From: Paenirhizobium selenitireducens ATCC BAA-1503
GTDB taxonomy: Bacteria > Pseudomonadota > Alphaproteobacteria > Rhizobiales > Rhizobiaceae
NCBI RefSeq assembly: GCF_000518785.1
Contig: NZ_JAEG01000001.1
Location: 372,001-436,000 of the forward strand
Direction of reading: 5' to 3'
Length of the DNA stretch: 64,000 nucleotides
Position 1 is the first letter of the stretch. Each line of letters opens with the position of its first letter. Shown here piece after piece: positions 22,771 to 29,424 of this stretch. The position numbers were made by a program, and so were the translations under genes. The notes beneath the pieces were generated by a model. The model made no database searches and was not told the origin of the DNA. It saw only the letters and a list, made by a program, of their open reading frames with translations.

Positions 22771-23535
22771 CTAAAAGGATCGGTTGCCCGCAGGCACCGG
22801 ATCGAAGAGACCGAACAGCAGAAAGCCGAACAGGAAGCCGCCGATGTGGGCGTCCCAGGCGATCGTGCCGGCGAGGTCGCCGAACAGCGGCAGGCCAAGG
22901 GCAATGGCGATATTGCCGAGAAACCAGACGATGATGAAGACGCGGACCGTGCGCAAGGACAGCGCCTCGCCGATCGACAGCCGGGCCGGCTGGGACCCCG
23001 TGTAATGCGCAATGGAGCGCCCCGAACTGCCGAAGGCGAAGCGGCAGGCCGATCCCATCAAGGCCGACACCACGCCGGAAGCACCGATCAGGATCGTCGG
23101 CTGGCCCCAGTTGACGCCGGCATGAACGGCGGCACCGGCCGCCGCCGAGGTGATCCAGAAAATGACGAATCGCAGATTGCCGATACGCCGGACGACGGGC
23201 GTGCCGAAGGCGGCGAGCCACAAGCCGTTGAAGGCGAGGTGTTCCAGGCTGCCATGCAGCAGCGAATAGGTCACCGGCGTCCACAGCCACTCAAGGCCCT
23301 GCTCCGCCAGCGGGTAGACGTAGCGCAGCGGCAGGAAGCCGAAGGTGACGGCCAGCCATTCGGCGGCCGCAGCAGAGAGAATCAGCGACTGAGCCGCATA
23401 GATGACGCCGAGCAGCGCGAGGGCCGCCAGGATGCCGGCCGGCAGATTGAACACCGGCACGCGCGGTGGCGGAGCATTGTCTCCCCCTTCGGGAGAAGAA
23501 TCGCCAATCGGCGATCTCGGGGGCAACTCATCCAT
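22771..23535 (-). CDS. Rhomboid family intramembrane serine protease
   Basis: A 254-residue membrane protein with about six to seven hydrophobic segments. Rhomboid hallmarks: HGSLEHLAFNGLWL (the H...N motif in TM2), GASGVVSALMG (catalytic serine in GxSG, about residue 153) and DAHIGGFLFG (catalytic histidine, about 230). An N-terminal 30 residues is Pro-rich and cytosolic. Substrates unknown. The ribosome site GAAGG upstream of the ATG lies in a small hairpin (23547-23565), and an intrinsic terminator sits 53 bp before the start codon, which hints at control by a leader RNA. Confidence 0.9.
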   Translation of the reverse strand: MDELPPRSPIGDSSPEGGDNAPPPRVPVFNLPAGILAALALLGVIYAAQSLILSAAAAEWLAVTFGFLPLRYVYPLAEQGLEWLWTPVTYSLLHGSLEHLAFNGLWLAAFGTPVVRRIGNLRFVIFWITSAAAGAAVHAGVNWGQPTILIGASGVVSALMGSACRFAFGSSGRSIAHYTGSQPARLSIGEALSLRTVRVFIIVWFLGNIAIALGLPLFGDLAGTIAWDAHIGGFLFGFLLFGLFDPVPAGNRSF

Positions 23536-23760
23536 GCGGCACCAACCTTCGTGACATCAACGAAGCTGCATAGCCGACCGAAGGGATAAAAAAAAGCCGC
23601 CCTTAAGTGCCGGGCGGCTTGTCGGGTCCCCCGGGAGCCTGGCCCCCACCCGAAATTGGTGCCGAAGGATGACCTTCGTGACGTGATGATCGTCATTTGC
23701 CACAACCGGCCAAGGGCCGCAACGATCAGAAAGAATTAACCTTAATCCCACAGTATGGCC
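23536..23760 (-). ncRNA. Candidate structured leader or small RNA upstream of rhomboid gene
   Basis: On the minus strand, from about 23760 down to the rhomboid start, the sequence contains several stable hairpins (CGAAGG-ATGA-CCTTCG at 23663-23678 on the plus strand numbering; a GC hairpin around 23625-23645), an intrinsic terminator at 23588-23618, and then a hairpin covering the rhomboid ribosome site. No coding gene ends at this terminator. The 11-mer ACCTTCGTGAC occurs twice (23545-23555 and 23672-23682). Either a transcription-attenuating leader or an independent sRNA. The 5' end is unknown. Confidence 0.45.
23588..23618 (-). terminator. Intrinsic terminator without an obvious upstream gene
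   Basis: Minus strand: perfect 7-bp stem GCCGCCC/GGGCGGC (23612-23618 with 23596-23602), 9-nt loop, then eight T residues. It reads only leftward, towards the rhomboid gene. Confidence 0.8.
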
Positions 23761-23855
23761 TTGCGAATAGGACAGATCCGGGCGCCGGGCAAAACGTTAT
23801 GTTAACGGCTTGCCGGTAATTGTTTAACGATAGAGAAATATTTCAGAACAGAACC

Positions 23856-24467
23856 ATGTATTCCTCTCCCGCAGCGCAGAACGGTGGTCTTGTCTCTCCT
23901 GCTCAACGGCGGGCGTTCCAACGTGTCGCCGTGAACCTGCAAGGCCGGCTGATGCTCGCCAACTATGAGGAATATGTCTGCAAGGTGGTCGACATGTCGC
24001 CGGGCGACGTGCGGTTCGCCTGCGCCGGCTGCCCTGTCCCCAACGAGCGGGTGATCGCCTATATCGACCATCTCGGACGCCTCGAGGGCAACGTGATCAA
24101 GCTGGTCGAAGGCGGCTTCGTCATGTCGATCAACGCGACGGGCCGCAAGCGCGAAAAGCTCGCAGCCCAGTTGACCTGGATCGCCAACAAGCACGAACTC
24201 GGCCTGCCCGAAGACCGCCGCCACGACCGCCTGACACCGCGGGTGACGCGCACCGAGCTGAAGCTCGAGGATGGACGCCGCTATCCCTGCCGCCTGATGG
24301 ACCTTTCGCTCTCGGGTGCGGCGGTCGATATCGACATCCGCCCGCCGATCGGCATGGCGGTCCAGCTCGGCAACATGCGTGGGCGCGTGGTGCGCCACTT
24401 CCTCGAAGGCGTGGCGATCGAGTTCCTCACGCTGCAGTCGCGCGAAGCGCTCACCGAATTCCTCTAA
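23856..24467 (+). CDS. Tandem PilZ-domain protein
   Basis: A 203-residue cytosolic protein with two PilZ-like halves. The C-terminal half has the c-di-GMP-binding RxxxR region (RRHDRLTPR, about residue 116) and DLSLSGAAVDI, followed by the typical V.G..R.V.H...GVAIEF strands. The N-terminal half keeps RRAFQRVAV but its D-x-S-x-x-G reads DMSPGDV, so it may not bind ligand. Likely a c-di-GMP effector. ATG 23856 is preferred; a TTG at 23820 is in frame. Divergent from the putative leader RNA upstream. Confidence 0.8.
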   Translation: MYSSPAAQNGGLVSPAQRRAFQRVAVNLQGRLMLANYEEYVCKVVDMSPGDVRFACAGCPVPNERVIAYIDHLGRLEGNVIKLVEGGFVMSINATGRKREKLAAQLTWIANKHELGLPEDRRHDRLTPRVTRTELKLEDGRRYPCRLMDLSLSGAAVDIDIRPPIGMAVQLGNMRGRVVRHFLEGVAIEFLTLQSREALTEFL

Positions 24468-29318: not shown

Positions 29319-29424
29319 GGCCAAGGCCCTCAACGCTTGTTAATTTAGGCATTATTAACCTTAACGGTGTGTAATCCCCGTCAAGCTCGAACCGGATGCG
29401 GCAAGAGCATGAAGGGAGACACCC

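Follow-up and report, generated by a model that had tools for sequence, protein, structure and literature searches.

A predicted small-RNA gene with its own promoter upstream of a rhomboid protease gene in Rhizobiaceae, and its likely counterpart in Brucella

The small RNA BSR0739 of Brucella melitensis lies in the gap between BMEI0738 and BMEI0739, the three genes being oriented left, right and right (PMC4365724). The available text of that study describes it as confirmed by Northern blot, abundant in exponential phase and affected in its level in an hfq mutant, and reports that RT-PCR gave no product joining the RNA to either neighbour. BMEI0738 and, in Sinorhizobium meliloti, SMc01000 have been named as MopJ orthologues (PMC4432633); SMc01001 is listed as an S54 peptidase, that is, a member of the rhomboid class (PMC8175422), and SMc00999 as a PilZ-like gene with a CtrA site upstream (PMC4414408). 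The last source also describes EcpR1 (SmelC291), a broadly conserved, cell-cycle-linked rhizobial small RNA beside the divK-pleD operon. In the portions of the BSR0739 literature that were accessible, a review among them, we met no link to rhizobia.

The element described here lies on the minus strand of the window, by which we mean the whole 64-kb stretch of Paenirhizobium selenitireducens ATCC BAA-1503 that was analysed, between a rhomboid protease gene and a divergent PilZ-domain gene:

23736..23745, minus strand: TTAAGGTTAA box, likely an activator site and putatively CtrA-like; exact in 72 of 87 loci
23717..23722, minus strand: -35 element TTGCGG; in 83 of 87 loci the spacing between box and TTG is constant
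23694..23702, minus strand: extended -10 region TGGCAAATG, with the hexamer CAAATG at 23694-23699, 17 bases after the -35 element
23588..23687, minus strand: predicted small RNA of about 100 nt, its start placed from the promoter layout 6 bases after the -10; covariance-model match at 23588-23685
23663..23678, minus strand: stem-loop 1 (CGAAGG...CCTTCG), which folds; two-sided changes in 3 of the 5 pairs modelled (80 distinct rows)
23654..23662, minus strand: open linker GCACCAATT, which belongs to the motif proposed as pairing seed; [AG]GCAC in 71 of 83 loci, TC[AG]GCAC in 64 of 83
23622..23653, minus strand: stem-loop 2, which has a G-rich bulge on one side; two-sided changes in all 8 modelled pairs, 89.0% of cells paired in the outer part and 71.2% in the inner part
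23588..23620, minus strand: stem-loop 3 and U-tract, forming an intrinsic terminator; two-sided changes in 7 of its 10 pairs, with 94.8% of cells paired
23569..23574, minus strand: -10-like hexamer GCTATG, putatively of a separate rhomboid promoter; 70 of 87 loci have such a motif past the T-run
22771..23535, minus strand: rhomboid protease gene, 254 aa (Pfam PF01694, E 1.8e-18)
23856..24467, plus strand: divergent PilZ-domain gene, 203 aa (Pfam PF07238, E 3.1e-14)

The initial annotation had placed an intrinsic terminator and two upstream hairpins on this strand, and all three are present: the hairpins correspond to stem-loops 1 and 2, and the terminator is a AAGCCGCCC/GGGCGGCTT stem with a 9-base loop, followed by eight U's at 23588-23595. 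It is the best-conserved helix of the RNA, and its U-tract lies 52 bases from the rhomboid start codon. Our consensus terminator scanner did not list it because its loop limit is 3-8 bases. The fold energy of the 98-nt core is -45.3 kcal/mol (z = -3.15, a level that none of 200 shuffles reaches); for the full 225-nt stretch z is -1.84, and 9 of 200 shuffles do as well, which locates the fold signal in the core. When the transcripts predicted for the 83 loci with the box were folded singly, the mean z was -3.6, with 78 of the 83 below -2; their median length is 103 nt (86-123).

Matches to the RNA were returned by blastn from 15 of 60 genomes of the genus, and of the 45 without one, G007 also has no match at E <= 1e-3 to R1, a covariance model that we built for the RNA. 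In the window's own genome R1 scores 87.6 bits at 23588-23685, and the next best match reaches 24.2 bits. Over 151 genomes of the family, with stricter filters, R1 found a match at E <= 1e-3 in 70 and none in 81. Twenty of the 30 loci returned by this family search (our own included) lie beside a rhomboid gene and 10 do not; all 11 matches of at least 40 bits other than our own adjoin one. A scan of rhomboid orthologues, taken over the best 80 titled loci of a longer list, showed 67 of these loci to have an R1 match (E <= 2.4e-6) immediately before the rhomboid gene, among them those of Rhizobium johnstonii 3841, R. leguminosarum, R. phaseoli, R. tropici, R. rhizogenes NBRC 13257 and Ciceribacter lividus. 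In S. meliloti Ak57 the top R1 match of a 3.7 Mb record (60.9 bits) lies between a PAS-domain (MopJ-like) gene and the rhomboid gene. With a second model, R2, 18 of 199 genomes of the order gave matches at E <= 1e-4; of the 18 new loci from this search (L180-L197), a rhomboid gene adjoins four (L180, L181, L183 and L188) and not the other 14. L188 (1501-1588), whose genome belongs to a different family of the order (f43), has a PilZ, MopJ-like and rhomboid neighbourhood, scores 33.8 bits with R2 and has no exact box; given this locus, the RNA may be older than the family.

By tblastn, 71 of the best 80 titled loci have a MopJ-like gene as their divergent neighbour; the PAS_5 domain (Pfam) was tested on one of these genes. 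In the other nine (L130, L132, L139, L144, L146, L149, L155, L159 and L163) tblastn found no MopJ-like gene between the PilZ and rhomboid genes, and these include the window's genus and Ciceribacter. In the window itself the MopJ-like gene is missing and the PilZ gene is the neighbour, the gap of 23536-23855 being too small to hold the former. Within this gap the best blastn match in four distant genus members (93-97% identity) is a 29-base block at 23792-23820 upstream of the PilZ gene (minus strand ATTACCGGCAAGCCGTTAACATAACGTTT), which is probably the PilZ promoter.

A covariance check across orthologous loci, as suggested in the initial annotation, bears out the stems in rows fitted to the model but not, by two-sided changes, in unfitted rows. 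The RNAalifold consensus of 15 aligned genus loci holds stem 1 and the terminator, with 12 pairs of which 3 have two-sided changes; stem-loop 2 was not recovered in this consensus of a sequence-only alignment, whose rows are shifted there, and is visible in most of ten members folded singly. In the unfitted 15-row alignment, 85.0% of cells are paired against 80.0% in shuffles and the covariation score is 0.214 against 0.128 (0 of 500 shuffles reach either value), and neither the pairs with two-sided changes (5 vs 4.5; 260 of 500) nor the further pair types (13 vs 13.9; 443 of 500) are above shuffles. A3 is an alignment of 82 rows that was fitted to the model. Of its cells 90.6% are paired (79.5% in shuffles), two-sided changes occur at 18 of the 23 pairs, and none of 500 shuffles reaches any of five measures. 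Related rows can beat shuffles without structure, and therefore the slid controls, at most 51.1% paired, and the single folds matter here. The A3 loci were picked by hand with no rule: 49 of the 67 titled matches were used, and of the 18 left out L149, L159 and L163 are present under another id, while the rest are similar to others and several are lower-scoring. L073, a family match beside a rhomboid gene, was also left out, and a few of the 82 rows seem to be the same genome in two collections (e.g. L054 and L086).

The promoter layout is nearly constant. We compared 87 loci, namely the 82 of A3 together with L173, L174, L175, L178 and L179 (S. meliloti, Sinorhizobium sp. K101, Shinella and two Brucella-genus genomes), and in 83 of them the TTAAGGTTAA box, with at most one mismatch, stands exactly 13 bases ahead of the TTG of the -35 element. 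Among these 83, TGN precedes the -10 hexamer in 78 and an A occupies hexamer position 2 in 80. The window's own hexamer, CAAATG, is a poor match to the consensus, and the promoter scanner listed no sigma-70 site for the RNA promoter. The complement of the box, TTAACCTT, is one base off TTAACCAT, one of the CtrA motifs listed in PMC11527210; it is from this near-match that we infer possible CtrA control of the RNA, CtrA being our best guess for the regulator that would act at the box. The main text of PMC4433202, as far as it was available, does not name SMc01000 or SMc01001.

The rhomboid gene appears to have a promoter element of its own. Thirteen of the 80 titled loci have no confident RNA match. 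Eleven of these have neither RNA nor box, including those of Agrobacterium larrymoorei, A. rosae, Neorhizobium, Xaviernesmea and Pseudorhizobium; the other two are L138, whose RNA has an internal deletion, and L165, a diverged RNA of 20.5 bits. With patterns that were in both counts written after the sequences had been read, a -10-like hexamer stands a median of 11 bases past the terminator T-run in 70 of the 87 loci, against 10.7% of shuffled stretches, and 8 of the 11 RNA-less loci retain CTATAT, CTGTAA or CTATAA within 130 bases before the rhomboid gene, against 8.9% in shuffles. The 17 loci without the motif after the terminator include those of S. meliloti and the Brucella genus. Box and RNA have thus been lost together, and the rhomboid -10 usually stays. 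The fixed box-TTG promoter and the hexamer after the terminator, retained in most RNA-less loci, point to an independent small-RNA gene and not to an attenuator or riboswitch. Judged from sequence, the element is very probably such a gene, with its own sigma-70-type promoter and a three-stem RNA of about 100 nt that ends in the intrinsic terminator. In L138 (2870-2941; Rhizobium rhizogenes OV677), box, -35 element and terminator are kept and stem-loops 1 and 2 are absent, a natural internal deletion.

The initial annotation had named an attenuator, a riboswitch-like leader and a small RNA with read-through as options; the last stood as far as the small RNA itself is concerned, with its own promoter, three covarying stems, a terminator and a Brucella counterpart. 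A cis-acting leader of the rhomboid gene, whose terminator and ribosome-site hairpins exchange partners, would fit the constant position of the RNA just upstream of that gene, and in the window GGCACCAA can indeed pair with UUGGUGCC at the rhomboid ribosome site. This 8-base complement, however, is found in 2 of 15 genus loci. The ribosome-site hairpin (CTTCGT/ACGAAG) and the repeated 11-mer are likewise real in the window, where GTCACGAAGGT occurs twice, but each recurs exactly in only 2 of the 15 (the window's locus and L003, with a one-base variant of the 11-mer in L002), so that the alternative pairing envisaged between the repeat segments lacks conserved partners. Conserved, mutually exclusive terminator and anti-terminator stems were not seen among the 15 loci for the pairing noted in the window. 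Pairing of the RNA with the rhomboid gene is also no stronger for cognate than for non-cognate partners, either for the whole RNA against the 5' region (mean -37.0 vs -38.7; 50 loci) or for the seed (-10.4 vs -10.7; 71 loci, with the window's own rhomboid start set to an upstream ATG and other rows possibly affected in the same way), and 194 of 500 shuffles equal the window's own pairing. We reject the attenuator and the riboswitch-like leader as very unlikely, on account of the poor conservation of the alternative pairing and the separate -10-like hexamer of the rhomboid gene; that no co-transcription was found in Brucella (PMC4365724) also speaks against them.

A mixed role, in which the element acts chiefly as a small RNA and transcription also continues into the rhomboid gene under regulation, would draw on the shared strand, the 52-base spacing in the window and the conserved position. 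It is very unlikely, given that the rhomboid hexamer usually outlives loss of the RNA and that the Brucella RT-PCR yielded no joint product (PMC4365724); the read-through proposed in the initial annotation accordingly finds no support. That the region is merely an insulating terminator or a promoter region, with no RNA function, might be argued from the terminator being the best-conserved helix, and is scarcely credible when stems 1 and 2 covary as well, 71 of 83 loci preserve [AG]GCAC and the promoter elements stand at a fixed spacing.

The independent small-RNA gene most resembles BSR0739, which sits in the same kind of gap, with a MopJ orthologue pointing left on one side and a gene pointing right on the other, and is itself read rightward (PMC4365724). 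The order is PAS-domain (MopJ-like) gene, RNA and rhomboid gene in S. meliloti, and MopJ-like and rhomboid genes in the two Brucella-genus loci (L178 and L179), which share the TTAAGGTTAA-13-TTG layout and a terminator-like end with the RNA family; we infer that BMEI0739 is the rhomboid gene. We take the genus of these two genomes to be Brucella from 96% identity to a Brucella lumazine synthase chain, every other genome among the 129 of 151 listed in that search having at most 89%. Neither genome was found in the R1 family search, and their loci are weak matches (R1 20.9 and 22.3 bits with filters off; R2 20.2-23.0 bits). Given the shared gene order and box-13-TTG layout despite these 20-23 bits, BSR0739 is probably an orthologue by position and promoter, and on these two grounds the window's RNA is most likely its rhizobial counterpart, strongly drifted in sequence. 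The two differ in length (160 nt predicted for BSR0739, about 100 here), and the available text of PMC4365724 reports similarity to related alpha-proteobacteria for three other RNAs and not for BSR0739. The relationship would give an orphan RNA of Brucella a place in a family that spans plant symbionts.

Other described RNAs fit less well. Rfam gave no match at gathering score over the 64-kb window, riboswitches and leaders included. In a permissive Rfam search STnc250 (RF01409; 24.5 bits, E 0.012) stayed below its gathering score of 42 and was rejected. RcsR1/rnTrpL (RF02552; 14.4 bits, E 2.9, gathering score 60) is likewise a rhizobial RNA of about 100 nt; we rejected it because the true RcsR1 lies elsewhere, on another contig of the window's genome (G000:C4, 85.1 bits) and, in S. 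meliloti Ak57, about 1 Mb from the member of the family described here. EcpR1 is set apart by its locus (divK-pleD/rpmG) alone, and Sm30/SmelC337 of S. meliloti, considered for its position, adjoins SMc01257 and sda and was rejected. Small-RNA coordinates on Rm1021 are given in Table 1 of PMC7143759, and the AbcR pair is on the other strand in Ak57 relative to that map; a possible inversion leaves our RNA unplaced on it, and it may be listed there. It may also figure among the 1,125 candidates of PMC2873474. The parts of the literature that we could search contained no description of it in rhizobia, and it may stand as a candidate in supplementary tables of surveys. We regard it as a new, widespread RNA family of a known kind, with no Rfam family at cut-off; SMc00999 (PilZ), SMc01000 (MopJ orthologue) and SMc01001 (S54 peptidase) mark its place in S. 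meliloti, and R1 and R2 are means to find further members.

Intrinsic terminators with long U-tails are common Hfq-binding ends. In the mechanism that we propose, a regulator, CtrA as our best guess, would act at the TTAAGGTTAA box, and the sigma-70-type promoter (TTGCGG, 17 bases, extended -10) with its fixed box would drive an RNA of about 100 nt whose U-tail would bind Hfq. The open, conserved UUC(A/G)GCAC after stem 1 would pair in trans with mRNAs and repress them, probably at ribosome sites, which we propose because the motif adjoins the CCUUC arm. The rhomboid gene would be served by its own -10-like element downstream of the terminator. Neighbouring genes are poor candidates as targets: for PilZ the cognate pairing is weaker than the non-cognate (p 0.001 in the seed test), and targeting of the PilZ and rhomboid genes was not supported, since neither pairs better than non-cognate genes do. 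MopJ gives a marginal result against shuffles (p 0.04) and no signal against non-cognate genes (p 0.18).

It is a tentative suggestion, possible rather than probable, that the RNA is a core riboregulator of the broad Rhizobiaceae, ancestral to Rhizobium, Sinorhizobium and Brucella, that it is switched through the TTAAGGTTAA box by CtrA or some other regulator of the cell cycle, and that it forms one circuit with MopJ and PilZ. If this were true, a trans-acting RNA, c-di-GMP and CtrA would be coupled at one short locus. With a promoter box that hardly varies next to MopJ and PilZ, the cell-cycle link is directly testable.

Two minor observations remain. The S. meliloti record that holds L173 (CP090106.1) is labelled plasmid pSymB, but its length is 3.7 Mb and it contains folE as well as the RNAs RcsR1 and AbcR, which are chromosomal in Rm1021; the record looks like the chromosome. 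In the window, a second TTAACCTTAA box at 29355-29364 (plus strand) stands 60 bases ahead of the GTG start (29425) of a 429-aa protein, which may belong to the same regulon as the RNA and whose end resembles an M23 peptidase by eye.
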